Shown piece after piece: positions 2,407-27,100 of a stretch of DNA of 64,000 nt. The translations under genes were made by a program, and so were the position numbers. Source of the stretch: Pratylenchus scribneri (taxonomy: Eukaryota; Nematoda; Chromadorea; Rhabditida; Pratylenchidae); contig JAQSEB010000037.1 of the NCBI GenBank assembly GCA_030063045.1, positions 1,302,001 to 1,366,000 on the forward strand, given 5' to 3'. The notes beneath the pieces are model-generated. The model did no database searches and had not been told where the DNA came from. It saw only the letters and a program-made list of their open reading frames with translations. Positions within the stretch are counted from its first letter, which is position 1. Every line of letters starts with the position of its first letter.

Positions 2407-5400
2407 ATGCCTGGCAAGAAAGGTGGGAGAAAGGCGGGGAAAGGAAATAAAAATCGGAAAGTGAAAGAAAGCTCTGCGGAGCTCGTAAACGAAATTGCAC
2501 AAAATGAAATGGAAAATGTTGAACAAGACAATCAAATTGTTTCAGATCTGCAAAACATGGACGTGGCCGAAGAGAAAATGGAAGTGGATACGGTGCCAAA
2601 TACCGAGAATGTGACCAATGAGGAAGAAGAAAAATTATTGGAGGGAGAAGAGATTCCTCTGAGTGAGGAACAAATGAAAGAAGCGGAGAAGCAATTGGAC
2701 AAAGACGATGAGGAAATTGAGGAGAGTGAAAAGAGTGGAAATGATCTAAACCCTGCGGGGTTCGAGAACGAAAATGGTTGGAAAGTTGTGGAGAAAAAGG
2801 ATAGGAAAAGGAATGTGGATGAAGGAAATGTGGATTCTGGGAGTGGTTTTGGTAATAAGGGCTTTAATAATAGCCAGGCTGGTAAAGAGATGCCCGAAAA
2901 GAAAAGGAAGGAGGAAGGGGTGAAATATGTGGTTTGCCAAGTTCACGAAGGTCACGTGATTGCGGCACGGAAGAACGTCCGCTCACGAAATTGGTGGCCC
3001 TACTTCATGGAGATTGAGGATAAATTGGTAGAAGAAGAAATTGAGGATGATTTTACTGGACTGATGGTTGGGGATATAATTATCGTTAGTAAATTCAGGT
3101 GGAACGAAGCAAATCGATATTTAGCTGCCCGTCAAGAGGACGTGAACAACAGAACGAAATTTTGGCTCAACCCGAATACAGGAATATTGCCAAAGCAGGC
3201 AAGAGCAACGGAATTGTTGGCCATTGAAACTGCTGAAAGAATGGAAGTGGTTGGCTGTGTCATTGGAATTAAATGGAGCAAAGGGAAGTTTGCAGCGGAC
3301 ATCATTTCATGCGGATTACAAGTTTGTTCACGGTTTATTCTAAGACAATGCAAAGGGTTTGACCCCTCAAATTTGAAAAATGGTCAATTATTGAACGTTA
3401 CTGTCGCAAAATTAATTGATGGGACTGTTTCGGAAATTAATTATATCCTTCCACCAGGATCCCCTTTTAGACAAGGTACTGAACAATACATTCTGCCTAA
3501 TTTTGGTGCACTGGCTGCCGTTAGCCCTCACACAATGGAATGGCCCAATTACAATGAAAATGGTTTGCCTACATTATTCCCATGCTCCGCGGAGCTCAAT
3601 GATGATCAATTGGAATGTGTGGAACATGTAGTGGCTGCAGCAATTGGCTATGAATCGGAATTGGAGCAAAGGAAATTGATGGTCTCGCGATTTGAAGGAA
3701 GAATTGCCGGATTTGGTGAGAATAATGCTGTAAAATTAAGTTTTGGTGAAAGAAAGAAGGAAGAAATAAGCATTCTAGCTGAATGTTGGGAACCAGAGGT
3801 AACGGTAAAAGCTAGAACAACACTGGCGGACAAGCATTTTGCCCAAGGATATGCTTGTGATCATGAAATTGTAGCAGGTAGAAGACCAAATCATTTCATT
3901 TTTTCAGTATGGGTGAAATTGACTAATGTTCAAGAACGGAAAAAGGGCTATGTGGAGGAAGAGTATGAAGCCTTCATGAATGGTGGTCGAGCAGTAGTGC
4001 ATCCTGTGGCTGGCAAAGGACTATTTGATAGGCTAATGTGCTTCAAATTCAATGTGCCGTCAAAAATTGCAAAAATGGACACACCACAAGGTAAAATAAT
4101 GGCAGCTCTTCTTGGCAGGTCAAAAGATGAGGAAGAGCGAATGACCATGGAGGATGTGGATGACTTGAGTGATTTGGATCAAAATGTTCAAGTGCACTCA
4201 GCTCTGCGGAGACTCAATGGCAGACAGAGAATAACAGCGGAAAATGTGATCAACGGAATTGGAATTTTGGCTCATCAACAAGCACCTGGTGGTACTGGAA
4301 AAACAGAAGTGGCTGCGGCTCTACTCAAAGTGCTAATCGAACAAAATCCGGAATTAAAATGTGCCCTCATGGCTTGTGCAAACATTCCGGTGACCAAATT
4401 GGTGGAAGCAGTTCAAAATATTTGTGGGAATGCGCAATTAGACGAAATTGGAACGATGGCCCTTTTCGGCGGCATGGCCAAGGTTAAGTACGCAAATCAA
4501 ATCGAATTGGTAAGAGAACAAACTCTAGTGAATAAAATAAACTCTGAGGAGTTCAAAAAATTATTGAATGATGATGAGAAAGCCATTGTGAAGGCATATA
4601 TGGAAAAAATAGAAAAAATGCCAAGATTTGCTGGAGAACAAGGTGCAAGTATTGTTTATTCAGATCGGAAGAAACCAAAATTAATTTTCTGTACAACAGC
4701 TTTAGGGGAAGATTTGCTGAAAAATTGTTTGAAGGATGTGCAAACACTCATTTTTGACGAGAGCACACAATTAAAATGGTCTGTAGTCGTGCATATTGTT
4801 GCGGAATTGGAACAACTTCAAAGAATTTTGCTGACTGGAGACAAACACCAATTGGGTGTTCATTTAGCCGACTTGCCTTCGATTCTTCAAAATGGATATG
4901 GACTTGAATCAGTGCTTGAGCAGGTTGAGCAATCACCCGGAATCAGGTATAGTTTTCTAACAAAATGCTATCGTTCCCATCCAGAATTGGTAAAATGTAT
5001 TTCGTTCTCCAAATATGAGCCAGATGAGAAGCTCATACCAGGAGCCTCTGCGGAGGAAAGAGCATTACTTACGGGATCTAATTTCTTACTTCCCAATCAA
5101 AGTGTGCCAATTGTACTAATAAATTCGACTGGATTTTGTCGTCAAGACCCACTGAGCCCTTCTTTGACAAATGACTCACACACCGATTGTGCAATCATGC
5201 TAGTCGACTCTCTTGTCTCGAATTTTGGCAACAACATTCTCAAAAGGACGGTAATTCTATGCATGTATCTGTACCAGGCTGCCGAACTAAAGGCACAACT
5301 CCAAAGAAGAGGCCAATATGATGAACTCCAAATTGTGTCGGTGGATGCGTTTCAATCCAAAGAAAACGACATTGCCATCCTCATAACAACGAGGACAAGG

Positions 5401-5937
5401 AATCGTGAAAATCAGGTTAAACAGGGCATGGACTTCTTTAAGGACAATCGGAGAGCCTGTGTGGCCTTAACCCGTGCACGTCATGCCATTTTTATCATTG
5501 GTGACTTGGTGCATGTCAGTCAAGGTGATGTTTGGCAAAAATTCATTTCAAAAGCGCTCGAGACCACCTCGGTGGTGAAGGAAGAATATGCTGCGGCATT
5601 ATTCCATGGAGCGGCAAAAAGAACGGATGCTGGAGAATTGATTGACAAATATGGCCCATTGGTTGACAATGAATTCCTGCGGGAATGGCGGAGGACATTT
5701 GGGAACGGAGAAGACAAGGATGAGGGAAATCGGGAAAATTCAATCAATTTTAGTTTTGCCTATGCAGCTCATGATCAGCCTGGCCCAAGTCGACCCAATG
5801 TGCAAAATGTGATTGCGGATGCTCGAGACGGAAATGGTCGAAATGGTAATGGCAATCGAGGCGGAAGAGTGTTCGTCAGAGGTGGAGGCAGTGGTGCATA
5901 CCGAGGAATGGCAAAGAATAAAAGAGGTCGAAATTGA
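2407..5937 (+). CDS. UPF1/NAM7-like superfamily 1 helicase, intronless, 1176 aa
   Basis: ATP-dependent nucleic-acid helicase of the UPF1-like (SF1) class. The protein has an acidic/Lys-rich N-terminus (about 1-165) and a middle domain. Motif I is APGGTGKT at 626-633 (Lys632; the usual form is GPPGTGKT). Motif II is DESTQ at 784-788 (DEAxQ in UPF1). Motif III is TGDKHQL near 810-816. A 'CYRSHP' segment corresponds to QYRxHP. Motif V is VDAFQSKE near 979-986 and motif VI is ALTRARH near 1020-1026. The C-terminus is Gly/Arg-rich with RGG-type repeats (about 1135-1170), typical of RNA binding. All catalytic residues look intact. RNA surveillance or small-RNA work is the usual role of relatives; this member's substrate is unknown. 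The 3.5-kb single exon is odd beside neighbours cut by many short introns. It follows the retroelement in the same orientation, so retro-origin or cargo status is possible. The ATG at 2407 is the first in frame. Confidence 0.88.
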   Translation: MPGKKGGRKAGKGNKNRKVKESSAELVNEIAQNEMENVEQDNQIVSDLQNMDVAEEKMEVDTVPNTENVTNEEEEKLLEGEEIPLSEEQMKEAEKQLDKDDEEIEESEKSGNDLNPAGFENENGWKVVEKKDRKRNVDEGNVDSGSGFGNKGFNNSQAGKEMPEKKRKEEGVKYVVCQVHEGHVIAARKNVRSRNWWPYFMEIEDKLVEEEIEDDFTGLMVGDIIIVSKFRWNEANRYLAARQEDVNNRTKFWLNPNTGILPKQARATELLAIETAERMEVVGCVIGIKWSKGKFAADIISCGLQVCSRFILRQCKGFDPSNLKNGQLLNVTVAKLIDGTVSEINYILPPGSPFRQGTEQYILPNFGALAAVSPHTMEWPNYNENGLPTLFPCSAELNDDQLECVEHVVAAAIGYESELEQRKLMVSRFEGRIAGFGENNAVKLSFGERKKEEISILAECWEPEVTVKARTTLADKHFAQGYACDHEIVAGRRPNHFIFSVWVKLTNVQERKKGYVEEEYEAFMNGGRAVVHPVAGKGLFDRLMCFKFNVPSKIAKMDTPQGKIMAALLGRSKDEEERMTMEDVDDLSDLDQNVQVHSALRRLNGRQRITAENVINGIGILAHQQAPGGTGKTEVAAALLKVLIEQNPELKCALMACANIPVTKLVEAVQNICGNAQLDEIGTMALFGGMAKVKYANQIELVREQTLVNKINSEEFKKLLNDDEKAIVKAYMEKIEKMPRFAGEQGASIVYSDRKKPKLIFCTTALGEDLLKNCLKDVQTLIFDESTQLKWSVVVHIVAELEQLQRILLTGDKHQLGVHLADLPSILQNGYGLESVLEQVEQSPGIRYSFLTKCYRSHPELVKCISFSKYEPDEKLIPGASAEERALLTGSNFLLPNQSVPIVLINSTGFCRQDPLSPSLTNDSHTDCAIMLVDSLVSNFGNNILKRTVILCMYLYQAAELKAQLQRRGQYDELQIVSVDAFQSKENDIAILITTRTRNRENQVKQGMDFFKDNRRACVALTRARHAIFIIGDLVHVSQGDVWQKFISKALETTSVVKEEYAAALFHGAAKRTDAGELIDKYGPLVDNEFLREWRRTFGNGEDKDEGNRENSINFSFAYAAHDQPGPSRPNVQNVIADARDGNGRNGNGNRGGRVFVRGGGSGAYRGMAKNKRGRN

Positions 5938-7789: not shown

Positions 7790-9111
7790 TTACAGCAGAT
7801 AAAATTTCCAAATGTTGATTTGATCCGTTTGCATTTCCCTTTTCAATTTTCTCAAAAATGGATTATAATTTTGGAACCAAATTTGTTCATTCAAATCATA
7901 AATTTTTTCATTGATTTTGACAGACAAAAAATGGACACCAATTTTTTCTTCATTTTCAATATTCCTTGACGATGAGGATGATTCTGCTTGTTCTATTTCC
8001 TTTTCCTTCCTTTTTTCATCTGATGAAAATAATAAACAATAATTTTAAAAGGGGCAAATTCCGGCTTCGATTCTTTGTTTTGAATTTTAATATTTATTTT
8101 TAATATACCGTAAATCCTCTATTAGTGACCCGACCTTCTATTAGAAACCTTCCCTCTATAGAACCCTCTCTAGAGGGTTTCATAGTAGGATTCTTTAAGC
8201 CAACCCCCTTCTCTATTAAAAGCCGCCTACTCTATTAAAGTTCTTCCCTCTATTAAAGATCCCCTCTCCTCCCACAATCTATTATAAGCACTCCCCCCTC
8301 TCTATTAAGAAGTCCCCTCCCTCCCCCTTCTTATATGAAACCATAGCCCTCTCTAATAGAAGCTTTCCCTCTATTAAAAGCCTCCCCCCTCTAGTAGAAC
8401 TAAAGGGTCTTATTAGAAAATTAGTAAACTGACTAATAGAGGATTTACTTTATTCGACTTAAAATTAATTTGGCCAATGATTATAAATATAAATAATAAA
8501 TATATAATCTATTGAATACCTTTCACATTCCCATCAGCCAAACTGCTTTCCATTTCTGTGTTTGCCATTACCACCTCCTTCATCTTCCGCTTCCGATGAA
8601 CATCAGATTGACGCCATTTTTCCCTCAATTCGGCTTCCAGCCAATCACTCATTTTTACTCTGAATTTGTCTAATTCGTCGGTCAATTCTTCTAACATTTT
8701 TCTTGCGCCACTTTCCTTTTTCAATTCACCATAATTTAATGCTTCAAAATATTGGTGCAATTTTTCGAAAATATGTTTAATTTCCGATTGTCTGGGCAAA
8801 GTCATATCATTCCTAAAATCCACATCCTCAAATGTGACAGCTTTTTGCCTTCCTCCATACTTTTCTGATATTTTTGAATGTGCCTTGGAAAACCATTCGC
8901 CAAAATGATTAATTTTATCGAGTATTTCATTTTGTTGAAGCTCCGAAAATTTGTACAATGATTGGGAAGAAGGAATCGAAATTAGCAATAGCAATAGATG
9001 AATATTAGGGAGGATAATTAGGAGATTTGATGAAGTGGAATTGCTCATGAATAGATGGAATCTATTTTTAATCTGTTTAAATGAAAAATAATTAAATTTG
9101 TTTATGAACAA
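7790..9111 (-). CDS. orphan secreted helical protein, short tandem paralogue (2 exons, 273 aa)
   Basis: Exon 1 is 9111-8520; exon 2 is 8019-7790 (stop 7792-7790). The intron 8519-8020 begins GT and ends TTTTCATCAG, and the split codon reads cleanly. The protein has a hydrophobic leader ending '...ISIPSSQS'; translation may start at the internal Met (MSNSTSSN) rather than the upstream one. A Glu/Lys-rich, probably helical region follows, then a conserved module with 'NIENEEKI' and 'QIWFQNY'. It matches exons 1-2 of the larger gene at 11006-16085 along its length (SIPSSQSLY/SFPSSQSVY; LDKFRVKMS/FDKFRVEMS) but stops at 'KFYLL', where the paralogue continues. It is therefore a truncated tandem duplicate, or it has unrecognised downstream exons: a GTAAAT donor overlaps the stop. 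The intron hosts the element at 8110-8448. Function unknown; I do not recognise the family. Confidence 0.7.
8110..8448. mobile_element. 339-bp MITE-like element with 17-bp perfect TIRs
   Basis: GTAAATCCTCTATTAGT (8110-8126) is perfectly mirrored by its complement at 8432-8448. The interior is a degenerate run of CTCTATTA-type words in both orientations. No ORF. It sits inside the intron of the orphan gene at 7790-9111. No clear target duplication could be seen, so the superfamily is open. Confidence 0.75.
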
Positions 9112-11005
9112 AAATTGAGTAAAATAATTTTATGGAAACAATGGAATTTTGAATTGAAAAATTCATTGAATTTTTACAAATAAATGATGATTTGGAATCG
9201 AACATTAGAAGAGATCCTAATTCACTATCTCATACCCCTTTCCCCAGAAGGGGTACTTTTTAGTTAATAAGAGAGCCGCTTCCCCCTCCAAAAATTGTGA
9301 TAATTTTGCGGCTTTCAGCAAAAATGAAACATGTAGCCTATTAAGCAATCCTACGAGATCCGAAGCATAGCTTATTAGATCTTAAGACCCATAATCCGTC
9401 TTTAAAATGTTAAATTTGGCCCTAAATTTCACTCTTTTATCATTATATATGTTAATATTTTCGGTAGGGCCACAAATTTCGGGCCGCAATTTTCATTTTT
9501 AGTAAGAGCCGCAAAATTAGGGGAAGCAAATTTCGCCATACGGTCAACAGAATGCCGAATTAAACCAAAAAATGTTAGAAAGAAAGAAGAGCCAAGGAAA
9601 ATTTGGTAAGGGGGCTCATAATGGAAAAGTACCGCCCCGACCCCCGATGGGATGGACCATTTCTTTTTGCTTCAACTCACCAGCGACTATCTAATGATAG
9701 TTTGAATAAATTAAAATTTAAAAGTTTAGGCAAAGGCAAACTAAAAATCGCCATTTTTTTAATCAAAAAAAATAATAAATATAATAAAATTGGGTAATAT
9801 TTTATTTAATGTGATGCCCATATTTGTCAAATCAAATCCATCCACAAAAAATTAATCGATTTTGGCATTTGGCCCATAAATCATTTGACCCAATAAAATC
9901 AAATGATTTGTGGCCAAATAATAATTGAAAGGGGAAAATTAGATAGAAATGAAGAGGAGAGAATGTGATGAAGAGAAGACAAAGAAATGAGGGGGATGGG
10001 CATTTTTGAGGAGGACGAGGAAATTTGCCGAATTGGCCGGAGAATGTAGTAGGCTTCAATCGAGGAAATGGGAAATTGGGTGCGCGACGCGAACGCAAAA
10101 ATTGAGATAGAATGGAAGGAAAATTGTGCCAAAAGGGTTTTGATCACAATTCACAAACAACAGCAGGGCACAAAAAAAACATCCATTTTAGGAGAAAAAT
10201 GCATATATTAAAAAATTCTACACTTTTATACTTATATAAGTTATATCTGAATAAAAATAACTGAAATAATTTGAATAGAAGAAAAAAAAAAAAACAAAAG
10301 TGGAAAAAATGACAGCAAACTTGATTTTAAAAAATTAATACGGGTTTAAAGGCTTTGCTTTCTCATTTTGAATCAAGAGTGCACGAAATTATCAAAATTA
10401 CCACTTCATCACTCATCAGTCATCAGTGAAGGGAAAAGTGAAAAAAAAAACGAAAAAGCGGATCAGTTTGGAGTTTGGACCTTCGGTTTTCGATTCTTGA
10501 TATTTTTGAAGCTTGATTTTCGTTTTGGTTTTTGGCTAAAAATAACATGGTACGGTTTTGGTTCGGTCAACTTACTCTTGACTATCCTATTTCACGGAAA
10601 TTTAAATCGGTCAACAGAAGAAAAAATTTGATAGACTAAAAGATGCTTTCATTTTAAAGATGCCATTTCATTGAAATCCAATTAAATAAAATGAATTAAA
10701 AAATTTATAAAACCCTTTATAACTAGTATATGATTGAATAAATGAAAATGAAAATATTTGGACGAGGAAAGAGAAAATATTAAAAATTAATATAAATAAG
10801 ACAGCCAATTTGAATCAAAATAATAAAGGGTTGAAAAATTCATATCGCCATTTTTCGTAAAGAAAATTCTTCTGGATCAAAAAAAAAAATTACAATAAAA
10901 TGACAGCCAATTTGAATTTAAAAAATATAATAATTTAAAAAAAAATCATGTTGCTTCCCATTTCGTGACTGAACACCTTCCGGATCAAAAGAGCCTGCAA
11001 AAATC
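9112..11005. other. no gene; spacer between the two orphan paralogues
   Basis: AT-rich spacer. It holds a 53-nt hairpin at 9867-9919 (ATTTGGCC...GGCCAAAT with paired interior) and three related copies of a GACAGCMAAYTTGA word near 10308, 10801 and 10901. ORFs at 9603-9797, 9832-10147 and 10368-10631 are low-complexity and lack gene-like features. Confidence 0.5.
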
Positions 11006-14000
11006 CTATTTCTTGCTGCTGGATTCCGTCATTTGATCGACATTTTCTTTATGCTGAAAAAAATTGTGTTCATCATCACCTTCATAATCTGAATCGCTTT
11101 GATGGAATTCAGCAGAAATATCTTCGTTCTCTTCCTCATCCGTTTGGCTTGCAATCAGCGATTGATGAGGAGGAGTCAAAAATACGGGTGAGGATGATTG
11201 GGGTGATGATGGGTTTGATGATTGAGTTTGTCGCAGGCTTGTCCGAATTGGCTCCAAATGTGAATCATCCTCACCCGAGTCCAAATTGATCGAAAATTTT
11301 GACGAAAGCGATTGCGATTTAGGTGATGATGGGGATGCTGGCGATATTTGATGAGTTCGTCGTAATCGAATTGGTTCCAAGGGTGGACTATGACGAATTG
11401 GCTCCAAGGGTGGACTATGACGAATTGGCTCCAAGGGTGGACTATGAATGCCCGAATTGGCTGGAAATTGTGATGATGGTGATTGCGATTGGGGTGATGA
11501 TGGCGATATATGGGTTCGTTCCAAAATTGGTTGAGTTGGCTCCAAATTTGGAATATTCGGGCCCAAATTGCCCATATTTGATTGCACATTTTCCGCATAT
11601 TTATCATAAATGAAGGCCGCAAAAGTTTGAGGAATTCGACGGCCATGAATATTTTCTAATTCGGCTTTCAATTTGTCCATAATTTCCAATCCATTTCCTT
11701 CCTTAAAATGTTTTACATATTTGTCCATCCCTGTTTTTTCCTTTAAATGTTTCAATCGGCTGAATATGGCCAACAAATTCATGGAATCCACAATGACTCG
11801 AACATCCAAATTCAGTCCTCGTTGGTTTGCTTTATGTCTGTCCAGGAAATTTTCGGGCAATTCATTTTGGCCAAGGCCAAATTCGAACAAATGAAAGTCG
11901 AATTTCTAAAATGGTTTATATCGGATATATTAATTAAATTTTATGAAGAAATCAAATTTATCATATTCTAAAAAAGAAATTATTTTTATTAGTATTTTTG
12001 GGCCGAATTTATATTTATATGTGAATGTGGATCTATATCACTAGAATATACATTTCGATCTTGATCACAAATTTTTAGTTATGTTTGTAAAATTAAAACA
12101 GTCAATTATCCAATTTAGATTATAAAATTTGTAAATAATATTCAATTTGTTAGCTATCAATTCGAATTTTAATCATTTTTTGAAGTTTTGTTTTGATCAA
12201 ATTTACTTTTTAATAGTCAACATATTTGTTCTCTGCTGAACTGAAACTAAATGTCCCACCAGCGATTACTATAATATCAAAATTTTATTTATTTACCTTT
12301 AAATAATCATGATTTGGCTCATATTCAGGGAACAATTCTCTGTATTCATTGCTTGTTTGCACATAATGCAAATGGTCATCATTGTAAAGTGATTTGATGG
12401 ATTGGACCAGTGGATTGTCCATTTCCTCCTCTACAATTTTGTTCATTTCATCCGTTTCTGTTTCCGTTGATGGCTTCTTCCCTTTCCGCTTTTTTGCTTC
12501 CAATTCCGCTTTCAATTTTATATCAATAAATTTTTTACTTGTTGCCCTCTCGTCCAATTTGCCCAAATAATATTTTAATAAATCCATTGCCAAAATTGTA
12601 ATTGTTGCCAAATTTTCAACTGCAAATTTTTTTCTGCCAATTTCGACTGTTTGATTTTCTTCTTGTATTATTTCTGAATGTTCAGTCAATGGAACAAAAT
12701 GATGTGAAGATTGTTGATGGACGGCTGCTTTATTTCTTTGTGGCTTTTGATTTTCCGTCCAAGCAAATTCATCTGCCATATAATTGACCAATTCCAATGT
12801 GGCACGATTTGTTAACACCGTATAATATAAACGTTTCAATTCCTAGAAATATAACTATTTATTATAATACAACCTATTCACATTTTCTATGTGTAACTAA
12901 ATTTTGTGTAACAAATCAATTTTTAATTAAAATCTTTCCGGAAAACATAATTAAATTCTTTCCGGAAAATCTAATTAAAATCTTTCCGGAAAACTTAATT
13001 AAAATCTTTCCGGAAAACTTAATTAAAATCTTTCCGGAAAACTTAATTAAAATCTTTCCGGAAAACTTAATTAAAATCTTTCCGGAAAATCTAATTAAAA
13101 TCTTTCCGGAAAACTTAATTAAAATCTTTCCGGAAAACTTAATTAAAATCTTTCCGGAAAACTTAATTAAAATCTTTCCGGAAAACTTAATTAAAATCTT
13201 TCCGGAAAACTTAATTAAAATCTTTCCGGAAAACTTAATTAAAATCTTTCCGGAAAACTTAATTAAAATCTTTCCGGAAAACTTAATTAAAATCTTTCCG
13301 GAAAATCTAATTAAAATCTTTCCGGAAAACTTAATTAAAATCTTTCCGGAAAACTTAATTAAAATCTTTCCGGAAAACTTAATTAAAATCTTTCCGGAAA
13401 ACTTAATTAAAATCTTTCCGGAAAATCTAATTAAAATCTTTCCGGAAAACTTAATTAAAATCTTTCCGGAAAACTTAATTAAAATCTTTCCGGAAAACTT
13501 AATTAAAATCTTTCCGGAAAACTTAATTAAAATCTTTCCGGAAAACTTAATTAAAATCTTTCCGGAAAATCTAATTAAAATCTTTCCGGAAAACTTAATT
13601 AAAATCTTTCCGGAAAACTTAATTAAAATCTTTCCGGAAAACTTAATTAAAATCTTTCCGGAAAACTTAATTAAATTCTTTCCGGAAAACTTAATTAAAT
13701 TCTTTCCGGAAAATGAAATTAAAATCTTTCCGGAAAACTTAATTAAAATCTTTCCGGAAAATCTAATTAAAATCTTTCCGGAAAACTTAATTAAAATCTT
13801 TCCGGAAAACTTAATTAAAATCTTTCCGGAAAACTTAATTAAAATCTTTCCGGAAAATCTAATTAAAATCTTTCCGGAAAACTTAATTAAAATCTTTCCG
13901 GAAAACTTAATTAAAATCTTTCCGGAAAACTTAATTAAAATCTTTCCGGAAAACTTAATTAAAATCTTTCCGGAAAACTTAATTAAAATCTTTCCGGAAA

Positions 14001-16085
14001 ACTTAATTAAAATCTTTCCGGAAAACTTAATTAAATTCTTTCCGGAAAATGAAATTAAATACTTTCCGCAAAACTTAATCATTCCGAAAAACTTAATTAA
14101 AATCTTTCCGTAAAAAATAATTAAAAATCCCGGAAAAAATTTTTCTGGAAAAATTAAAATCTTTTCGAAAAACAAAGTATTTAATAAAATCAATTCATTT
14201 CAAATATTTTCAAATATTAAATTCTTAATTTAATTAAAATATAACCCTACCCTTTTGATGGCCTCATTCTCGTATTTCTTCGCAATTTCAGCCTCAATTT
14301 CATTCACAACATTTCGTGCAAATTTTGTCATCCTTCCCAAAGCAGTCAATTTGCTCCCAATTGAATCTTTTTCAATGTTTTTCACGGTTGGCACATTCCA
14401 CCCCATATTTTTTAATCTTTCCGCATTCTCTCGTTCCCTTGCCTCATTTTTCGCAATTTCTTCCATTTGTTCGGCCACCGTCTCCAATTTTATCAATTCC
14501 ATTTTATTCACAATTGAATATTCGCCATTTTGCCATTCCTTAAGACTGTTAAGAAAAAAGCGGACCCGGCTCATCAATTCTTCCGCTTTTTCCCTTTCTC
14601 CTCGCCGAAAATTCATTCCATCTATTTTCGAGGATTCCTCTTGCAAATAAATTTCTACTCCATTGCACATTTCAGTAAAACTTTTCTTGTCAATTCCTTT
14701 CCTCACTTTTTTTACAATTCCGGCAATCTTTTCGTCCAAATTCTTTTCCCTAATTCTGTTCCATTTAAATTCCAGTGTCCTGGAAAATATTAAAATAAAA
14801 TCTTGTTTCTATCTAAAAATAATTTTTTATTATGGAAATTTTTTCTATTTATTTTTTATTTATTCCAGATTAACTAGTTTTATTTATTTTAGATTAACTA
14901 GGGCTACTTGACTTTGCTCACAAAAATTTCAACAATTCTTCAGTTTTAATAAAATTTTATACAATTATATAAAATTTCATAGAACATTGATATCAAACAA
15001 ATATAATTTACTAAAATGTTTTGGCAAAAAATTCCTGATTTAAGACAATTTTATTTTGCTTCAAATTCATTAATAATCCAAATAAATGATGTTATATATT
15101 TGTTAGATAAAAATTTACTTCCTATAAAATACTTAATGTATAAAAATATGAAAGTATTTCTAAATTCCTAATTTCCATTTTAAACCCCATTAAATTAATA
15201 ATATTAATGAACTTTTGATAAAATTCCAAAATTGGGTCATGATCCATTTTGATTTCTTCCTTTAATAATTTAAAAAATGGATCATAATTTTGGAACCAAA
15301 TTTGTTTATTTAATTCATATATTTTCTCATTGATTTTGACAGGCAGAAAATGGACATCAATTTTTTCTTCATTTTCAATATTCCTTGACGATGATGATTC
15401 AGCTTGATGTTCTGTTGAAAATAAGAAGATCTCAACAATATTTTTTGTGTTAAATTAAATTTTTAATGAATAACTTTCTGTCAATTTTCGAGATTTTTAA
15501 ATTCAAATGTTTACCTTTTGCCTGCTCTTCTTTTTCAGTCATTGTTATTCCCTGTAGCTTTAAAATCGTTTGACGATATTTTTGCTTCCTAAAACTGCTT
15601 GGCTCTTCTTTTTTGGCCTTTTTCATTCTTTTTTCAACCGTTCGGCGATATTTTTCCTCCAATTCAGCCTCTAATGATTCACTCATTTCCACGCGGAATT
15701 TATCAAATTTTTCGGCTAAATCCTCCAATATTTTTCTCACAACCCTTTCCGATTTTAATTGTCCATCGCTCAAGCTATGGAAATATTCATCCAATTCTTC
15801 GAAAATTGCTTCAAAATGTTTTAGTAAATTTTCTTGTTGAATTGTCGATTCACTGGGCAATGTTATTGCATTCCAATCCGAAAATGTGACCTTTTTTTGA
15901 CCATGGTGTGGCGCATACCGCGAAATGGCATATTGCATTTTTGAATATGCTTCCGACAACCATTTATGAAAAGAAATAATTTTATGGGAAATATCATTTT
16001 GTTGATCCTTCGAAAATTGGTATACTGATTGCGATGAAGGAAAGGAAATTAGCAGAAGGAGGGAAATAATAATTAAAATTCGCAT
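11006..16085 (-). CDS. orphan secreted protein with Pro/Ser-rich tail (5 exons, 923 aa model)
   Basis: Model exons: 16085-15515, 15411-15186, 14779-14251, 12842-12297, 11905-11006. All junctions have GT/AG sites (the exon-2 donor GG|GTTTAA is the weakest), and phases add to an uninterrupted 924-codon frame. The N-terminus is a classic signal peptide (MRILIIISLLLLISFPSSQS). Exons 1-4 are charged and predicted helical or coiled-coil (e.g. EELDEYFHSL, AEKFDKFRVEM). Exon 5 is a Ser/Pro/Gln-rich low-complexity tail with three exact SPPLEPIRH-type repeats and an acidic end. No known domain is recognised. Alternatively exon 2 runs on to a stop at 15122, giving a separate 286-aa protein like the downstream paralogue, with exons 3-5 belonging to another gene. 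The 1.4-kb intron 14250-12843 is filled by a 24-bp satellite. A TATA-like TTTTTATATAG lies about 120 bp upstream of the ATG. Confidence 0.6.
11367..11447 (-). repeat. 27-bp in-frame minisatellite, 3 units, in exon 5 of the orphan gene
   Basis: Three head-to-tail 27-bp units (11367-11393, 11394-11420, 11421-11447), nearly identical, encode three copies of a nine-residue SPPLEPIRH unit. The same Pro-Leu-Glu-Pro-Ile-Arg wording recurs once more, diverged, downstream in the protein (HLEPIR), so the tail grew by internal duplication. Confidence 0.9.
12929..14120. repeat. 24-bp satellite, 47 units in strict register, inside an intron
   Basis: The unit is close to CTTAATTAAAATCTTTCCGGAAAA, two strong palindromes (TTAATTAA and TTTCCGGAAA) joined by short linkers. 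TTTCCGG begins at 12935 and at 14039, exactly 46 periods apart, so no indel has entered 47 units. Variation is mostly TCT/CTT before AATTAA, plus a few AAATTC and GAAATT units. Because 24 is a multiple of three and the unit lacks stops, both strands stay open (12797-14113 plus, 14193-12916 minus). The right edge degenerates from 14065. Confidence 0.97.
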
Positions 16086-17020
16086 TTGTGAATTTTGGAA
16101 ATAAATCTGAATTTAAAAAAATTTAAACCGTAAAATATGGGTGATATCATTTGAATGGAATACGAAACTGGATAAAATTTTGATGAATTTCCATGCAACA
16201 CATTTCTATATAAAAAGATTGGACGAAATTTTTGTGCATCACAAATTAAATTTTTCAAGGGAAATATTAACTTTTAAGCTAATCTGTTAGTCCAAAGAAT
16301 AAAGAATTAATGGAATTAATTGACAAAAGGTTATGACCAAAAAATGGCAAATAGACCAAATGAAGAGGTTCCATTTTTACATACTTTCTGCTTTCTGGCC
16401 AATTACTCAAAAAAATAAGTTTAATATAAAAATTTATTAATAAATTTGGAAGAAAATTGATCGTTGCAAATTTTAGTTGATAATGATTCCGTTGATTTGT
16501 CTTTATTGACCAGCAGACAAATTTAAATATGGGATATTGCGAAAAAAATGACATTAAATTGAGCCAAATTCCGTTTCACTTGATCAGAAATTGGCCAAAT
16601 TTGAAGGAATAAAAAGAGGGGTAAATAGAATTGTTGGATTGGGATGGGAAATGGGATTTGATGAGGGGAAGGAAGAAAGGATGGAAATGGAGATGGATTT
16701 GGATTTGGAGTGGAGGAATTTTTTGTAGATTGATTTATAAAAATTGGCTTTTGGGGGAAATGCTCGGCAAGAAAATATTTCTTTATAATCAATAATCAAT
16801 ACCCATTTGTCAGATATGTACATATTAAATATAACTAGTTAAATATAATTAAATTGAAATTTATTGGGAAATTTAATGGTCAATTCGGGTAAATTTTCAC
16901 ATAAAAATATACTATCAAAAATAATAAATTTTTAGTATTTTGATTCAAAATTAGCTGGAATTATAATTTATGTTAAACATGATTATTGTTTTTAATTAAA
17001 TAAATGAAATTGTTGCCAAT
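16086..17020. other. no gene; spacer with one dispersed repeat copy
   Basis: AT-rich spacer upstream of the orphan gene and downstream of the DEAD-like gene. Bases 16686-16768 match 23681-23757 almost perfectly (about 80 bp, GGAGATGGATTTGGA... to ...TGGGGGAAA). Minus-strand ORFs here are low-complexity. Confidence 0.55.
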
Positions 17021-20000
17021 TTAAATATTCAAGATCTCATCTTCGTCCAACAGTTGCAAAACATACTCAATTGAATTTGTGAAACGCCAACCACCTTCAC
17101 CGAATTTTTCCAAACGATTCTTTTCTCTTGCTGTGCCAAATAAATTCAGTATTTTAGGGCGCATACTCAAACCACTGCAAATTTCTAATTAAGTTTGGTT
17201 TATGGTGAAATATAATAACTTGATTTGGGGAATTCGCTTGGCATAAATTTCCTCTGTTTTTGGGACCTCCCAATTGATGATTAATTGGTTTTTTGAATGA
17301 GCAAATTGAAACAAATTCTCTTCATCACAGAGAATTAACATTGCTCTGCCCTGTGCAGTCTCTTTCATCACTTTTGCTTGGTCTGTTTTTGCGGAGTTGG
17401 GCAAAAGCTGATGCACAATTCTTTTTGTCATTGAATTCTTTGATTCATAATCCAAAGATGCAGCCACACTGCTAAAGTTCAACCGAGGAACATATAAAAT
17501 CAACAAATCGTAGCACTGTAAAAATTGTCTATTAATATTAATCAGAAATATAAAATTATTTAGCGTTAAATAAAATTTTAAGAAATTCCCAATAATGGCT
17601 TATTAAAAATATCAATGATGAAAGGCAGTAGGTCAATTGGGAAATGGAAAGGCCACAATTTTTAGTGAATAAACTAATGTTAATCAGGGTGCCGCAATGA
17701 CCAAAAAATAGTTGATTTTATTAAAATTATATTTCTGGCAGTTTTAGTAAGGTCAATCTTTATTTTTAACTTATTTTATACAAAATAAAATGTAAAATTA
17801 ATTTATAAAACAGTTTTACCCTATTTACACTACATCGTTTGTTAATACCATCTTTAAAAATCCAAAAATCAAATATTACTGTATAATTTGCAGTAATTTT
17901 TAGAAAATATATAATCCTGAATTGACTCAAGAAATTGGAATTCTTAAAGCTTATAGCATTGCTAGTCTGGAAATTTGCAAATTTAAAGGCAAATTAGAAA
18001 TCTAAGAATTTATTAGCTAATATTATTTTAAAAATTGAGTAAATTAAAAAATTTGATTTTGTATGGCATTTACAAATTAAAAATGCCATCGTAAATTTTG
18101 ATATGTATTGGAGATAATTCGAGGTCCATTGAACAATTTAGAAGATATCCATGCTATTTGGTCATAGAAAATTTTTCAAAATAATAATATTTGCCGGTTA
18201 TATTAAAATTTTCATCAACCATTTCTTTTCAACATTTTAAATATATTCATTAATTTTTACAAAATTCGCTGGTTGATGTTAATCTGGACTGGACAAATAA
18301 ATTTTTGAATTTTTAAGCAAGCAAGGCTATTCTATTTTGACGCGAACAGCCCAATTGAATTATTCGTCCGCGCAATGCTACCACGCCAGAGTATCGAGTC
18401 CCCAACCCAGGCACAAATCGGAATAATTATTGCCCCAATGAAGACACCAAAATTAGTAAAAATACTTTTATTTTGAGACCAACTTGGGTAATTAAACCAT
18501 CAAAACCCAACCCAAAATATACAATTATGAATATGTGAAATTCCAGCCATTTGGCCGGAAAAATATTCCAATATGAGAAGAATGATTGCCTTAATCATCG
18601 GCGGCTAATCATTCCATAAATGATGAGAATATGTGGTCTGGAATTGGTTGCCGCCTCCGTCCCGATTTATGTGTAAAATATGAAAAGATTTTAGATGGGA
18701 ACGGAGGCGGCAGCAACAATTAAAGGGAATGGAAAACATGGGAAAATGTTCGAGGGCAATTGGAGGAAGATTATGGATAATGGAGGGGAAATAAGAGGGA
18801 AAGAGGGGGGATAGGATCGAAGTTTATCTCGTGAATTGGCCTTTTCCCTTCCTTCCTTCATCCCGGGTCGCTATGTGCCAAAAATCCCATTTTAGGATGG
18901 CCAATTCGCGACAATTTTAGAATTAGCAATTCCGGAATTGACTAATTTGAAATATCAACTAAATTTGAATGTCAGAGTTGAAACTTAGAATTGATAGACA
19001 TTTAAATTGATAAATCATATTTGATATTTCTAATGAAATATTTTTTATTATACGCCAAATTAGAAGAAAAAAAATACAAACCGCCGCATAATCCCTGGAA
19101 AGAAGATTTTTTAAAAATATGAGCTTTGCGTTTTCGCTTCCACGACAATCCACACCGACATTAACGGATGATGCCGGAATGTTTAATATATTCACATGGC
19201 TTGAAATATGATAATAGTTGTATCCAGCAAAAGCACGAATGAACATTGATCGAAGGCTATTAAATTAAAAATTGATAAAAAAAAAATATAACTGCAAATA
19301 TGAATCCTAAATTTATTTTTTCCTCTTCTAATTCTATTTGATATCATCCATAGAGGTTGACTCGAATTGATCAAATAAGGATGGCTAAATCTTGAGCTTT
19401 CTTGTAGTAAATTGTAGAGAAATTTTAAATTTAAAAAACAATTAATTGCTATTTATTCATTCGACTAAAAATTAGATATTTTTATATAAAAAATAACTTG
19501 ATAGTATCGGCAAAAGCATTCATGCAAATTGATATATCGGTATTTTGTTTTGCCGGTGGTGAGGACAATGTAAAAGATGTGAAGGCAGAGATGAGTTTCG
19601 GGCAGGCTTTTGCAGCCCGGACCGATATAACCCGTAATAGGGCATTCAGCCTGGCCTTTGTTACCCTATTTATTTATTTTTTAAATTGGAAAATTTTCAA
19701 AAAATTTTCAACTTACTTACAAATATTTAAATAAAGAAAAAAAATAAATATACTGACAAAAAATTTTATTTATAATATTTTATAACAATTATTTTCATTA
19801 AATTAACCTATTTCTCTTAAGTCTTAAATATCATATGTTTTCGGGCCGGGCCATCCGAGAATTAGCCCGGCCCGTACAGTAATCAAGCCAAAAATTTCGG
19901 TCCGGGCACGAGTCGAAATGGGGCGGCCCAACTCATCTCAGCGTTGAAGTCGATGGCATGCCAGCAGCAGCAGGCTGGATGGCGACCTAAAAAATTTTAA

Positions 20001-22049
20001 AATGAGAAATAATTTTTGCCTATTTTATAGACTATTTTAGCAAATATCCCAATTCGAAATGTTGGATATTTCAATTTAAAAAAATTTAACGTTTTACCAA
20101 TCACTAGCATCATACATATATACTTAATTAATTCGATATTGATTATTCTAATTCTAAAGGGATATTTATTATATGAAAATAAAGAGATTTGGTGTAGCTT
20201 TGGGCAAAAATTTTAATTTTTGAACTTTCTTAATCCTTAGATTGCTAAACTTATTTGATTTCAGTATAGTTATAATTGATAATTGGTTAAAGATTCGCCT
20301 TCTAGCAATTTAGGGCATGATGAATAACTTATTCACATTTTTAAATCTTTTTTTTAATGAAAAATTTCAATTTTACCTGTGTTTTTTGTTGATCTTGACG
20401 GATGGAATCGAACATGTCTCTCAACAAAGTGCATTGGGTGGTATCTTTCCAACAGTTGAATGCAACAATATTTGTTATTTGAAATTCATCCCAATTGCGA
20501 ATTGGAAGGTAGGGTGGATAGTCTTGACATTAGGGATTGAAAAATTTTTATAAAGAAAGAAAAGGAACACCTGTACCTTTTTCCAATTCCATATTCACGC
20601 TTTCCGTTTTGGCAACAAAATATGATTTTGATGAGAAAATCCTTTTCGGATTCCGATTCTTCATATATTTCCACACATCATCGGATTTGGCCAAAACAAT
20701 TATTAGGTCATTTGTGGGCGTATCGATGAAACGATTAAAATTGACAAAAGTGACACCAAACTTAAATAAGAAAATTTATTTAAAAATTCCAAATTAATAT
20801 TAAACGGAATAAATTCGTCAATTAGGTCTTAATAAAATGTCAAGATATGATAAAAAATTATGTGAGATTTGTATGTATCTTACTTTCTGCGCCCTAAATT
20901 ACCCTAAAATGGAATTTTTGAAAATTAAAAAAAAATTCGGACGACAATTCTGCAGGATGTGAACATTATTCTAATTGCTAAAATAAGATTAGCCTTTACA
21001 AAAAAATTTTTTTATGCAGAAAATTTTCAATTAACAATTTAGTTAAATAATAGATATTCAAGGTTAATAATTCGATCATAAGAAAGTATTTTGGCTTAAT
21101 AATTACACTTATGTTGCTAAATAACATTCATAAACAAGATTTTCGCCATCCAAATTCCAATTAGATAAAAATATTTTTTATGACTCAATCAGCAGAAGCA
21201 GAATCGACCGACCCTAAATACGACCGTTATTTTTCAACTTAATTAATTTTGAACGAATTTTATAAATCTTAAGTCCTATCTTTTATTATAAATAGAAAAA
21301 ATAATATTTACCCGGCAGTTTTTTTGACTGTAGGCTTCATTAATTAGATGCAATTTTTGTTCCATCCATGTGTAATGCTGCTCCGTAACAATAACAATTG
21401 CCGCAGAATTTCCTTGATATTTAAACATCCTTTCAAATGCTATGGCCAACAATGAATCAGCCAGACGATCCGATTTCCCTTCATGTGAAGACGGGAGCTG
21501 CTTATGGATTAGCATTGATTCTACATGATGAAAGGAAAAGAAACAATTAAATATTTTTAAAATTAATTTATCATTTTCCCCCTATCATAATTTCTTGAAA
21601 TATAGTCTCGATTTTCGTATCTTACAATCATTTGCGAAATACAATAATGTTTGTGTTTTGGGAGATTATTATTATGGCAAACCAAATTTCAATTGTATAA
21701 TTTTTTTCCTAATGGACATAATTGAAATTATGCATTATTAACTTGCTTTTATAATTATCTCCAATCTTGAAATTGCTCACAGAATTTATTTTAAAAAAAT
21801 TGAAACAGATAAAAACACAACCTTCTAGAAGTGTGAACAAAGTCGTTTCAAAATTGGTCAGACAAAATATATTGCTTTGCAGAATTTGTATCCCAACTTC
21901 GGAGAAGACATTTCCAATATAACCAAATTTTCTGGTAATCTAAAATGATGTGAAAATGTTATTATGGGAATAACAAATTATTTTGCCTGTTCGCCAAACT
22001 CAGATTGTAAGTTGGCAAAAACTTCGCTATACTCATTGGGATGCAGATT
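17021..22049 (-). CDS. degenerate DDX3/Vasa-like DEAD-box protein lacking helicase motifs (5' end not found)
   Basis: Eight exons: 22049-21987, 21939-21822, 21520-21312, 20760-20577, 20522-20377, 19256-19082, 17515-17220, 17174-17021. All have recognisable splice sites, and phases match at every junction except 20377/19256, where a small exon is probably missing. Order and wording follow DDX3/Vasa: a Q-motif region (FGYIGNVFSEVG...TLFTLLE), the Walker A region (SHEGKSDRLADSLLAIAFERM where A-TGSGKT is expected), the Ia region (AAIVIVTEQ for PTREL), 'SSVNVGVDCRGSENAK', and the C-terminal core (CYDLLILYVPR... for LVFVETK). Motif V is CDEENLFQFAHS (for TDVAARGLD), then 'QLIINWEVPKTEEIYAKRIPQ' (for VINYDLP...YVHRIGR). 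Catalytic residues are replaced while structural hydrophobics remain and no stop interrupts the exons. It probably acts as an RNA/protein-binding pseudohelicase. Intron 21986-21940 has a GC donor. Stop TAA is at 17023-17021. Confidence 0.7.
18481..18498 (-). ncRNA. SL1 spliced-leader-like 18-mer (possible SL RNA gene fragment)
   Basis: The minus strand reads GGTTTAATTACCCAAGTT, identical to the first 18 of 22 bases of nematode SL1; the usual TGAG end is replaced by GGTC. An AATTTTGG, the wording of the SL RNA Sm site, follows about 27 nt downstream (18454-18447, minus). The following DNA is locally GC-rich. Spacing is shorter than in a standard SL1 RNA and the donor GGTAAA is absent, so this is a diverged or dead SL gene, or a captured leader. 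It lies in an intron of the DEAD-like gene. Confidence 0.4.
18648..18716. repeat. GC-rich stem-loop
   Basis: TTGCCGCCTCCGT (18648-18660) pairs with ACGGAGGCGGCAGCAA (18701-18716) around a 40-nt AT-rich loop. It is exceptionally GC-rich for this window, as structured RNAs often are in AT-rich genomes. No family recognised. Confidence 0.5.
19530..19985. repeat. GC-rich imperfect foldback element in an intron
   Basis: The left arm (GATGAGTTTCGGGC, then AGCCCGGACCGA, near 19590-19624) recurs inverted on the right (TCGGTCCGGGC, then CCCAACTCATC, near 19897-19937). The centre carries the strong hairpin CGGGCCGGGC / GCCCGGCCCG (about 19849-19878). It lies between exons of the DEAD-like gene. No credible ORF; 19498-19734 is an accidental one. 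Confidence 0.55.
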
Positions 22050-22868
22050 CTGTAATATGTTAATTTTATTTTAATTATTTGTTATATTATATCTGTAGAA
22101 TATTGGGAATATTGGATTGATATTTAAATTAGATTTGACCTTATATCCCATTGGCATAATATGTATTTCCCCTCTATATAAGCTTTCCTCATTCCTCCCA
22201 AATCATCTCAGTCTGACCCAGTCTGTTGTTAATTTTATATTGAATTCCCAAATCTATTATTCATTCATTATTATTTATTCATTTTATTTATTGGATAAAA
22301 TATTAATTAAATACATTCGGACATAACAATATCCTTATTAACAATTTTGATCAAACCATCAAAGGAAAATTGAAATCATTATAATTAATTTTTAAAAAGG
22401 AACATAAATTCCGCCCATTTCACAAACTTAATACCATTGTATTTTTAAAACCAGAAACCACATTCTTTTTAGTTGGAGACAGAAGAGATATTAGAAAAAG
22501 ATATGGTAGATTTAGCGATAATTAGTAATTACAACAATTTATAGCAAAAAAACGGTAAATAACCTTATATTGCCGTTTTTGGTCATAATTTTTTATTTTA
22601 TGGTCAATTTTGTTTCGATCATCGATCAATTTATTTGATAGCAAAATATTCTGCCAAAAGAGTAATTAATGGCATATATAAAATTTTATTAATAAGGTGA
22701 AAAGTTGCTGTGATAAGCGCATAATTGGGTGGACTTTTCTACCAACAATCGAAGCTTTAAATAATTCCATAAAAAGATTTTTCGAACAACATAAAATTTT
22801 TTTATTAATTTAAAATTGTTGGTTGAAAGAAAAAATTCTTTGCTAGGTCTTTTTAATTATAGAACATA
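22050..22868. other. no gene recognised; presumed 5' region of the DEAD-like gene
   Basis: About 0.8 kb AT-rich DNA. The exon at 22049 starts with a splice acceptor, so one or more upstream exons of the DEAD-like gene should be here or further right, but I could not identify a start codon with support. A TATATAAG box lies near 22176 on the plus strand. Confidence 0.35.
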
Positions 22869-23240
22869 TTAAATTGCCTTTTTATAAAGCTTGTCGAAGA
22901 GTGATATATAAAAAAGGCTGCAAGTTGTGGCAATTGTCGACCAGTTACCCATCGGCAAAAACGAACAAATCTCTGGCCAACAGGCTTCCAGTGAAATGTT
23001 GATGAAAGGCAGTCGAGTTTGCAAAGCTTTTTTTCGCCAACGTCGAGTGAAATTAATAGAGCAGAATTTGGCAAAATGCTTCAAAAAACGTTGAGGTTTT
23101 CTGATGATTATTTTGTTGTTCATATAATTTCCATCGAATTTCAACCATTTTAAAATGCGATTTTTAATGAAACAAAATTTTTTTGCTGCAAATTTTTCAA
23201 ATGGCAGTTGCAAAAAATGTTGTTGGTGCAATTGTTCCAT
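22869..23240 (-). CDS. small F-box-like protein (123 aa, single exon)
   Basis: The ORF begins MEQLHQQHF and is basic and aromatic in its first 75 residues. It ends with a segment resembling an F-box: SLEACWPEICSFLPMGNW followed by TCSLFYISLFDKLY (about residues 84-119), where F-box proteins show a Pro-Glu-Ile...Phe-Leu-Pro core and a later Cys...Tyr pair. F-box proteins link substrates to SCF ubiquitin ligases through SKP1. The motif is at the C-terminus rather than the usual N-terminal position and there is no substrate-binding domain, so this may be a fragment or an exon of a larger gene. It lies upstream of the DEAD-like gene on the same strand. Assignment is tentative. Confidence 0.4.
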   Translation of the reverse strand: MEQLHQQHFLQLPFEKFAAKKFCFIKNRILKWLKFDGNYMNNKIIIRKPQRFLKHFAKFCSINFTRRWRKKALQTRLPFINISLEACWPEICSFLPMGNWSTIATTCSLFYISLFDKLYKKAI

Positions 23241-24157
23241 TTTGGAAAAATATCATATCGTTAGAGATGAATTGTAGATGTGTGCTCAAAAATGTGATTC
23301 TAGAATAAAACGTTAAATAAAAAGCCATAAAGCATTTATTAATTTAAATTGATCATTTATTAAGTATAGAAAATGTTAAATGATTTAAAATTTTGTGAAA
23401 TTTTTATTGGAAAAGGTAAAATAAAATTAAAATTATTTATGAACATTTAGAAAAAATAAATTTTCCAAAATATATTAGAAAAATGAGAGAATTTTTCGAT
23501 TTTTAGATTATTGAGTCGAGGAAAACAATTGACCCAAATGACGAAAAATGGGAGGCTGAAAGGATTGAGTTAGGCGTTAGATGAGCCATATGTGCACTGC
23601 TGAAAGCAATGTGCATTGTGCAATTCCTCTTTTAAGCAAGCATTCATCGATTGCCTAAGCAAAGGCATTGGCAAAAGTCCAAATGGAGATGGATTTGGAG
23701 TGGAGGAATTTTTTGTAGATTGATTTATAAAATTGGCTTTTGGGGGAAAAATGCTCGGCTGAACTCTGTGACTGAATTCAATGATGGAATTTTTATTATT
23801 ATTTTATGGATTCATTGCAAAAATTCTAACATCCTCCGTATTTTATGCATTTTTCCAATCATTATACAATTTTATGAATTAATTGCAAATGCAAATTAAA
23901 TTGATGGTGGAGAATAGGCAATATCTTTTATGCTTTTTAAAATAAGATTGTCTCATCCCGGGAAAAAAATTTTTTACGAAATTTTTGTAATAATACCTAT
24001 TATTCAATAATGGAAATAATAATTATTACATTTAAAATTGGAGAATTAATTTATAAAAAAAAAATTAAATTGAATTGGATGAGTAATTTATTTAAGATGA
24101 GATTAAAATATGGCAATTGATTTAAATAATCAAAATTAACAAAATAAAAATTCAAAT
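23241..24157. other. no gene; spacer with dispersed repeat copy
   Basis: AT-rich DNA between the F-box-like ORF and the 3' end of the SLC22 gene. Bases 23681-23757 are the second copy of the about 80-bp repeat at 16686-16768. The ORF at 23651-23899 runs through this repeat and is not credible. Confidence 0.5.
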
Positions 24158-27100
24158 TCAAGTGGCCACTGAATCGGAAAGTAATTTGCCATTTTGATCC
24201 GATTGTACCATAGCGGAAGCAGATTTATTCGGAAAATTTGCCAGCAATGGTTTGCCCTTTGTTTCGCTAATGTTAAACTGTGGGAAAAATAAAAATTTAA
24301 AAATATTTATACGGCAAATTATACCTGAAAGAAGAATGCATCGACCAATGCAATGATCATCAATGCCAAATAGGGCAAAAATGTGGCAATATTGGACTGA
24401 AAAATTGAGGTAAATTAAAATTGAATTTCAAAAATTTCCTAACCAAAATAAACATTTGAGGAGCCAAAACAACGCCAATTCGGCAAAACAATTGACCAAA
24501 TGAATAAGCCGTATTGCGTATGCACGTTGGGAATAATTCATTGTTAGCCAGAGAATTGATGATGAAGAGGAGGGGCGACAAACTCAACACAAGGAGAACG
24601 GGTGCCCGAGGGATGAAGGGGAATTGGCGTTGAGAATCTGAAATCAGATTATTATTTTATACATTAGCGGAAAAATAAGAAATAATCTCTTTTCTTTGGA
24701 CTAAATAATTGAGTCTGTTTTAATTCCGCCTGTTTGACTAAGTTTTAATTCCGCCTGTTTGACTAAGTTTTAATTCCGCCTGTTTGACTAAGTTTTAATA
24801 ATTCCGCCTGTTTGACTAAGTTTTAATAATTCCGCCTGTTTGACTAAGTTTTAATAATTCCGCCTGTTTGACTAAGTTTTAATAATTCCGCCTGGTTGAC
24901 TAAGTTTTAATTCCGCCTGTTTGACCAAGTTTTAATTCCGCCTGTTTGACTAAGTTTTAATTCCGCCTGTTTGACCAAGTTTTAATTCCGCCTGTTTGAC
25001 TAAGTTTTAATTCCGCCTGTTTGACCAAGTTTTAATTCCGCCTGTTTGACTAAGTTTTAATTCCGCCTGTTTGACCAAGTTTTAATTCCGCCTGTTTGAC
25101 TAAGTTTTAATTCCGCCTGTTTGACCAAGTTTTAATTCCGCCTGTTTGACTAAGTTTAAATAATTCCGCCTGTTTGACTAAATTTAAATTCCGCCTGTTT
25201 GACTAAGTTTTAATTCCGCCTGTTTGACTAAGTTTTAATAATTCCGCCTGTTTGACTAAGTTTTAATAATTCCGCCTGTTTGACTAAGTTTTAATTCCGC
25301 CTGTTTGACCAAGATTTTAATTCCGCCTGTTTGACTAAGTTTTAATTCCGCCTGTTTGACTAAGTTTTAATAATTCCGCCTGTTTGACTAAGTTTTAATA
25401 ATTCCGCCTGTTTGACTAAGTTTTAATTCCGCCTGTTTGACCAAGATTTTAATTCCGCCTGTTTGACTAAGTTTTAATTCCGCCTGTTTGACTAAGTTTT
25501 AATAATTCCGCCTGTTTGACTAAGTTTTAATTCCGCCTGTTTGACTAAGTTTTAATAATTCCGCCTGTTTGACTAAGTTTTAATAATTCCGCCTGTTTGA
25601 CCAAGATTTTAATTCCGCCTGTTTGACTAAGTTTTAATTCCGCCTGTTTGACCAAGTTTTAATTCCGCCTGTTTGACTAAGTTTTAATTCCGCCTGTTTG
25701 ACCAAGTTTTAATTCCGCCTGTTTGACTAAGTTTTAATTCCGCCTGTTTGACTAAGTTTTAATAATTCCGCCTGTTTGACTAAGTTTTAATAATTCCGCC
25801 TGGTTGACTAAGTTTTAATTCCGCCTGTTTGACTAAGTTTTAATTCCGCCTGTTTGACTAAGTTTAAATAATTCCGCCTGTTTGACTAAATTTAAATTCC
25901 GCCTGTTTGACTAAGTTTTAATTCCGCCTGTTTGACTAAGTTTAAATAATTCCGCCTGTTTGACTAAATTTAAATTCCGCCTGTTTGACTAAGTTTTAAT
26001 TCCGCCTGTTTGACTAAGTTTTAATAATTCCGCCTGTTTGACTAAGTTTTAATTCCGCCTGTTTGACTAAGTTTTAATTCCGCCTGTTTGACTAAGTTTT
26101 AATAATTCCGCCTGTTTGACTAAGTTTTAATTCCGCCTGTTTGACTAAGTTTTAATTCCGCCTGTTTGACCAAGATTTTAATTCCGCCTGTTTGACTAAG
26201 TTTAAATAATTCCGCCTGTTTGACTAAGTTTAAATTTAGCCTCTTTTAATTCCTCCTGTTTTTTATTTCGCCTGCATCTATCGATTTTGATTGTTCAAAT
26301 TTTGAATCCGGATTAAAGATAAATTAATGATGAGCTGGATCACCAAAAAACAAATTTTACGCAAAATATTCACTAACCGAATATGTAAAAAATTGCACAA
26401 ATTGCCATTGCTGCTGCGATCAATATTTCCGCAATAAAATGAACCAATTTACGGCCCAATCGCCGAGTTCGAAATTCGAGGAAAGCCACCAACAAATGGA
26501 GGGCATATCGGCTACATCCCATGAAAATGGCATTCAAATAAATGGAACCGGACAATTTTTCCATATTGAAGAGGAGGGAATAGTCAATGAGGGAATAGAC
26601 GAGGAAACTGCAGGCAATGGCCAATGTGTAGCGGGTGAAACGCAAATTGTAGAATAAATGGAACTGTGAAATTGATAGAAAAATAAACTAATAATTAATT
26701 TTTTGAATAGTAAGTATTTAAATAATAATTGTCAAAAAAAAACGAAAATTTCGAAAATGATTGAAATTGTTGAAAAAATTATAATGGTTCTTTTTTTAAG
26801 ATCCCCAATCTTACATTAGAGCCAATTTATAGATCTCTTTAAAACTCATCAGTTAAGAGTTTGTAGCGGTGTGATCAAAATTGAAACTTAATAAAGCGCT
26901 TTCGGTGCAAATTAATTTAAAATTGGTTTAATTAATATAAGCAAAATTATTCTCAAATGATCCGATTCGTCAAGATCTATCAAATTAATAGTGATTTGAA
27001 GGGTTAAAAATGAACTTTTGAACCAATAATCCTTTCAATATATTTTAAAAAATTTTTAACATTTACACTGTTTTTTTTGACAAATTAAATATTTTCTCTA

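Follow-up and report, generated by a model that had tools for sequence, protein, structure and literature searches.

A two-copy gene of Pratylenchus scribneri with replaced DEAD-box motif places, a possible helicase ancestry and an insertion in one copy

Can a gene descend from a DEAD-box RNA helicase and keep none of the helicase motifs? This question is raised by a locus of the nematode Pratylenchus scribneri on the minus strand of a 64,000-nucleotide stretch, called the window below (assembly GCA_030063045.1, contig JAQSEB010000037.1, positions 1,302,001 to 1,366,000; coordinates count from its first letter). DEAD-box proteins carry the motifs Q, I, Ia, Ib, II (DEAD), III, V and VI. A sequence-only reading had described the locus as an intact multi-exon protein with the DDX3/Vasa order of segments and other strings where the motifs should stand, and had suggested a pseudohelicase kept for binding. 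Our analysis gives slightly better than even support to a two-copy gene that has lost the motifs and carries an insertion in one copy, its exact role left aside.

Two copies of the gene and an interrupted exon

Eight open exons with usable splice signals, one of them a GC donor, were borne out on the minus strand together with the replacement strings SHEGKSDR, VTEQH, CDEENLFQFAHS and KRIPQIN, all present as quoted earlier. By codon bias, the proposed frame ranked top of six in 7 of the 8 exons. Joined without a missing exon, they gave a 453-residue query that still included a start exon (MPMGYK, near 22150), which was later rejected because it has no aligned counterpart in the second copy described below; this start was part of the early window-protein queries (the Pfam, PDB, database and genome searches and most shuffle tests). 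No first coding exon was found upstream of 22049, and the gene probably begins further upstream.

A protein search with the window protein across the genome (227,248,964 bases in 276 contigs; PMC10138993 gives 276 contigs and 227.24 Mb) returned 14 matches at two loci only, the window and positions 155968-159701 of another contig, C8. The reciprocal search with the C8 protein returned 13 matches at the same two loci; since only the best candidates are scored, further distant copies are possible. PMC10138993 also reports 41.4% duplicated BUSCOs, though ploidy was modelled as two. The C8 locus holds nine exons in order with consistent phases, encoding 497 residues open to the stop codon, and its start exon was not located either. 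Because the C8 copy shows them together, the eight window exons belong to one gene.

The two proteins are 56% identical. Over 462 codons, synonymous divergence (dS) is 0.66, nonsynonymous divergence (dN) 0.32 and their ratio (dN/dS, omega) 0.49 (bootstrap 0.37-0.65); the differences at codon positions 1, 2 and 3 number 132, 107 and 172, and the frame stays open across the length differences between aligned exons. The ratio, which the sequence-only reading had proposed to measure against sister species as a guard against a decaying pseudogene, comes here from two copies within one genome and is not near 1. The two-copy locus, seemingly fast-evolving, is a protein gene that has been moderately constrained for at least the greater part of its history.

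The copies are colinear from roughly 17.0 to 23.7 kb in window coordinates. Outside this block, comparison of C8:133500-182500 with the window (BLASTN, E up to 1e-8, at least 80 columns) gave one match at 40863-41051 and further, mostly repeated, ones at 56911-57114 and 60548-61463. With so few matches beyond the block, the similarity seems confined to a limited segment, either duplicated or of old homology. Stretch 60548-61463 contains repeats in both directions, and these turn up again near C8:176187-179156. Upstream of the exons, a second part of the block is also kept at C8 (Table 1), and a DNA search with 22860-23330 found the window and C8 loci only. An open reading frame within it (22869-23240, F-box-like by eye) was excluded from the gene because its differences from C8 are even over the codon positions (23/18/20), so the upstream part may be a non-coding element.

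The missing exon, sought between 19257 and 20376, was placed at 19986-19498 by the C8 comparison. In C8, the counterpart lying between exons 5 and 7 has the sequence AAAAVLPIPTAGGPSTSTFILRSPSEPQNVDLSSMCIISFAETI, runs from phase 0 to phase 2 as the window model requires and contains no insertion. In the window, the ends of this exon (19986-19940 and 19585-19498) lie about 354 bases apart, separated by a repetitive sequence with in-frame stops. A genome search with this insertion gave 30 matches, namely the window and 29 stretches elsewhere, mostly at 67-73% identity and up to 89% in short ones. All five relatives that were fetched reach its low end near 19586, three of them reach the high end near 19939, and four align in separate pieces; no clean target-site duplication was found at the insertion. 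A micro-exon at 19752-19721 (32 bases, the top of 32 phase-fitting candidates) was rejected since it lies within the insertion and the C8 exon at that place differs. Because of the in-frame stops, the window copy is not intact unless splicing bypasses the insertion; thus the absence of stops from the eight exons read earlier stands and the word intact does not. Judging from the two sequences, the window copy is cut in exon 6 and either disabled or reliant on splicing round the insert. A single-copy reading can overlook an insertion that a sister copy reveals immediately.

Replaced motif places and signs of a RecA-like fold

None of the eight motifs is present in both copies. In a register set by eye against the RecA1 strands, the place of PTREL is occupied by VTEQH in the window and VPEQH in C8, that of TPGR by AKSDD and AKPDD, and that of DEAD by FNCW and YNCW. 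The prolines of C8 at the first two places are residual single residues that we regard as suggestive. In the same register neither copy has DEAD-like acidic residues at motif II, in agreement with the earlier observation that no DEAD motif is evident. SHEGKSDR of the window corresponds to QEEQSDR in C8. With GKS absent there, the window tripeptide does not represent a conserved remnant of Walker A.

To compare conservation at these places, nine motif-equivalent segments (71 places) were selected visually on the DDX3 alignment. Identity between the copies is 66% in these segments versus 52% in the rest, a marginal difference, as 20 of 475 circular shifts were equal or better. The most conserved 20 residues, LCDEENLFQFAHSKNQLIIN, fall at the motif V place, with 18 of 20 kept. 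One hint taken from this is that the former cleft now serves in part as a conserved surface of another kind, which would mean reuse over decay. A bolder version, in which a lineage-restricted nematode family rebuilt the catalytic cleft as a binding surface (LCDEE-LFQFAHSK-QLIIN at motif V) for a new ligand, is doubtful.

Signals for the fold are weak and recur in one register, that of the second RecA-like domain (RecA2). The PDB search returned two rows only, both DHH1 (E 0.45 and 0.48), in this register, and the weak match to eIF4A-III (E 0.36), the DHH1-like loci of the same genome (E 0.06), a weak DDX3 match and hhalign against a 13-row DEAD profile all share it; the 30 genome loci compared had been preselected as DEAD matches, so that only their register is informative and not the E value. 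Modelled without helicase rows in the input, C8 exon 8 folds as b-a-b-a-b-a-b at low confidence. Foldseek with the C8 exon 8 model gave 15 DEAD-box entries by title among the best 50 matches listed, and the match to the eIF4A C-terminal domain had a probability of 0.97 and a TM score of 0.59. Of the best 50 entries listed by the VIA fold search, 37 have titles that name a superfamily 2 (SF2) helicase or translocase; the same protein often appears among them more than once. A motif-free fold of the second RecA-like domain is thus weakly supported by modelling, and DEAD-box helicase ancestry is plausible rather than proven.

Several results weigh against helicase descent and the gene model on which it is built. 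Pfam gave no DEAD or Helicase_C match for either half or for the C8 protein at E up to 10, neither locus appears in the genome-wide listing of DEAD/Helicase_C profile matches, no relatives were found in the protein database, and whole-length sequence and profile tests stayed mostly within the range of shuffles. A reversed-protein control weakened the claim, moving our confidence down by a small step to its present level just above even. The single-sequence model of exon 8 and its fold search did not support a RecA2 fold; RecA2-like neighbours were obtained with the low-confidence C8 exon 8 model. For the putative first RecA-like domain, the register was drawn by eye. Conservation between the copies is below average at the motif I (3/8) and motif III (2/5) places, and in the first exon (21987..22049) other frames outscore the proposed one by codon bias. 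Of the DDX3/Vasa order of segments that had been read here, the repeated weak RecA2 signals are the part that persists, whereas Pfam and most of the whole-length tests do not bear it out.

The earlier suggestion of a competitor or scaffold in a Vasa/DDX3 pathway was an inference that found no support. The top weak matches are DHH1 and eIF4A-III, not Vasa or DDX3, and none of the 84 matches listed for a DDX3X query of the genome falls at the window or C8 locus; DDX3-like loci lie elsewhere, at C42:1390630-1392672 and C124:1042308-1043823.

Weighing the explanations

In the favoured reading, the gene is present in two copies, and its most likely ancestor is an RNA helicase of the DEAD-box type. 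At least the second RecA-like domain would retain its fold with the ATP- and RNA-handling motifs lost, the old motif V-VI cleft may have turned into a new conserved surface, and the protein would act as a non-catalytic binder or scaffold, a pseudohelicase, within an RNA-protein assembly, in the manner described for Utp25. RecA-type descent is fairly probable. Given such descent, we judge loss of the ATPase highly likely; given both, a scaffold role is somewhat more likely than not. We infer the loss of ATPase activity, the scaffold role and the choice of working copy, which is likely the C8 copy, open in its nine located exons. Selection on the gene and a weakly supported RecA2-like fold without motifs favour a pseudohelicase over plain neutral decay, although the window copy is interrupted.

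It is an even question whether the window copy is a drifting pseudogene disabled by the insertion, with C8 alone functional, which is compatible with the favoured reading. The insertion places in-frame stops inside a conserved exon; the 5' piece of exon 6 runs into a stop soon inside the element, with no GT donor ahead of the first in-frame stop by eye; and omega is higher from the exon 6 3' piece onward than in the preceding part (0.56 vs 0.42). However, the other eight exons are free of stops and frameshifts despite the dS between the copies, a weak acceptor at 19655 within the element yields an open, phase-correct exon of 158 bases (19655-19498), and the element, given its modest identity to its best relatives, need not be recent; were it old, the lack of further damage would point to tolerance. 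The locus might instead encode an unrelated fast-evolving alpha/beta protein that resembles RecA2 by chance. We consider this rather unlikely, as the DHH1, eIF4A-III and hhalign matches, from different inputs, agree on the RecA2 register and SF2 entries are the most frequent among the neighbours of the helicase-free model. That two neighbouring genes or a wrong model join separate RecA1-like and RecA2-like halves would fit the long introns flanking exon 6 and the unlocated start exon, but is very improbable in view of the nine exons shared with C8 and their consistent phases through exon 6. Equally little, or slightly less, can be said for a working helicase or ATPase with non-standard motifs: conservation of the motif-equivalent places and the window GKS at the motif I place would suit it, yet GKS is missing from C8 and, by the register used, neither copy has the acidic residues of motif II or the second arginine of motif VI.

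Features of the window and relation to known pseudohelicases

Table 1. Coordinates of the located exons, the insertion and the upstream block
Feature	Window coordinates	Strand	Basis or remark
Upstream block kept at C8 (C8:159885-160685)	22455..23341	-	73% across 900 columns; 469 bases of it reach 81%
Exon 1 as located (NLHPNEYSEV..., with a GC donor)	21987..22049	-	C8 counterpart NWHPDDYNQI... with GT donor
Exon 2; Q-motif region would fall here	21822..21939	-	C8 comparison
Exon 3; motif I place (PSSHEGKS) and Ia place (VTEQH; C8 VPEQH)	21312..21520	-	C8 comparison
Exon 4; motif Ib place (AKSDD; C8 AKPDD)	20577..20760	-	C8 comparison
Exon 5; likely motif II place (FNCW instead of DEAD)	20377..20522	-	C8 comparison; DEAD alignment by eye
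Exon 6, 5' piece (VAIQPAAAGMPSTST...), stops at insertion	19940..19986	-	resembles start of C8 exon AAAAVLPIPTAGGPSTST...
Repetitive insertion with in-frame stops	about 19586..19939		imperfect terminal inverted repeats GC[T/A]GAGATGAGTT by eye
Exon 6, 3' piece (FTSFTLSSPPAKQNTDISICMNAFADTI); likely motif III place	19498..19585	-	C8 comparison
Exon 7; RecA2-like part begins	19082..19256	-	C8 comparison, hhalign
Exon 8; RecA2-like core (CDEENLFQFAH at motif V, AKRIPQI at motif VI)	17220..17515	-	profile matches, structure model
Exon 9 and stop codon	17021..17174	-	C8 comparison

Near the helicase-like gene, the plus strand of the window carries a stop-free frame of 1222 residues (2269-5937; Pfam AAA_12, E 2.3e-27), by eye a UPF1-like helicase of superfamily 1. 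Two related-looking minus-strand frames (8509-9129 and 15450-16112) have signal-peptide-like starts and, by eye, helical charged bodies; they matched no Pfam family above cut-off. A tandem array at 12923-14126 consists of about 50 copies of a 24-base unit and is open on both strands, which read as FPENLIKI and FSGKILIK repeats, and the arrays at 24717-26236, 52185-52670 and 58521-58802 have the common core AATTCCGCCTGTTT on either strand, with differing unit lengths. Further along lie a nematode cuticle collagen N-terminal domain (48805-49320, minus strand; Col_cuticle_N, E 9.2e-14), beside which a collagen-like frame (47072-47530) had no Pfam match, and an exon of a major facilitator superfamily transporter (62636-63049, plus strand; E 2.7e-10). 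A plasmid search and an Rfam scan at gathering thresholds gave no matches.

Pseudohelicases have already been described as a kind, in the account of Utp25/Def given in PMC9539457. According to that account, Utp25/Def has a DEAD-box-like fold whose motifs are dispensable; the present protein would resemble it in a fold of this kind without the motifs, and differs in that Utp25 is essential and validated per its authors, whereas here the fold is weakly supported and predicted from sequence. Neither the window nor the C8 protein hit a Pfam family, and that of Utp25 was absent from the matches at E up to 10. What the gene may have in common with eIF4A, DHH1/CGH-1 and DDX3/LAF-1 is the register and the topology predicted for a second RecA-like domain; none of their motifs is kept in both copies. 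The PriA of Deinococcus radiodurans, a helicase relative described as a pseudohelicase in PMC4504706, is a bacterial replication restart protein and belongs to another family. Judged by titles, no published mention of the gene was found in the literature searched.

If the fold holds, the gene adds to the known kind of pseudohelicases, and few non-catalytic relatives of DEAD-box proteins seem to have been described. A two-copy family with replaced yet conserved motif places would, if true, offer a natural test of an ATP-free helicase fold.
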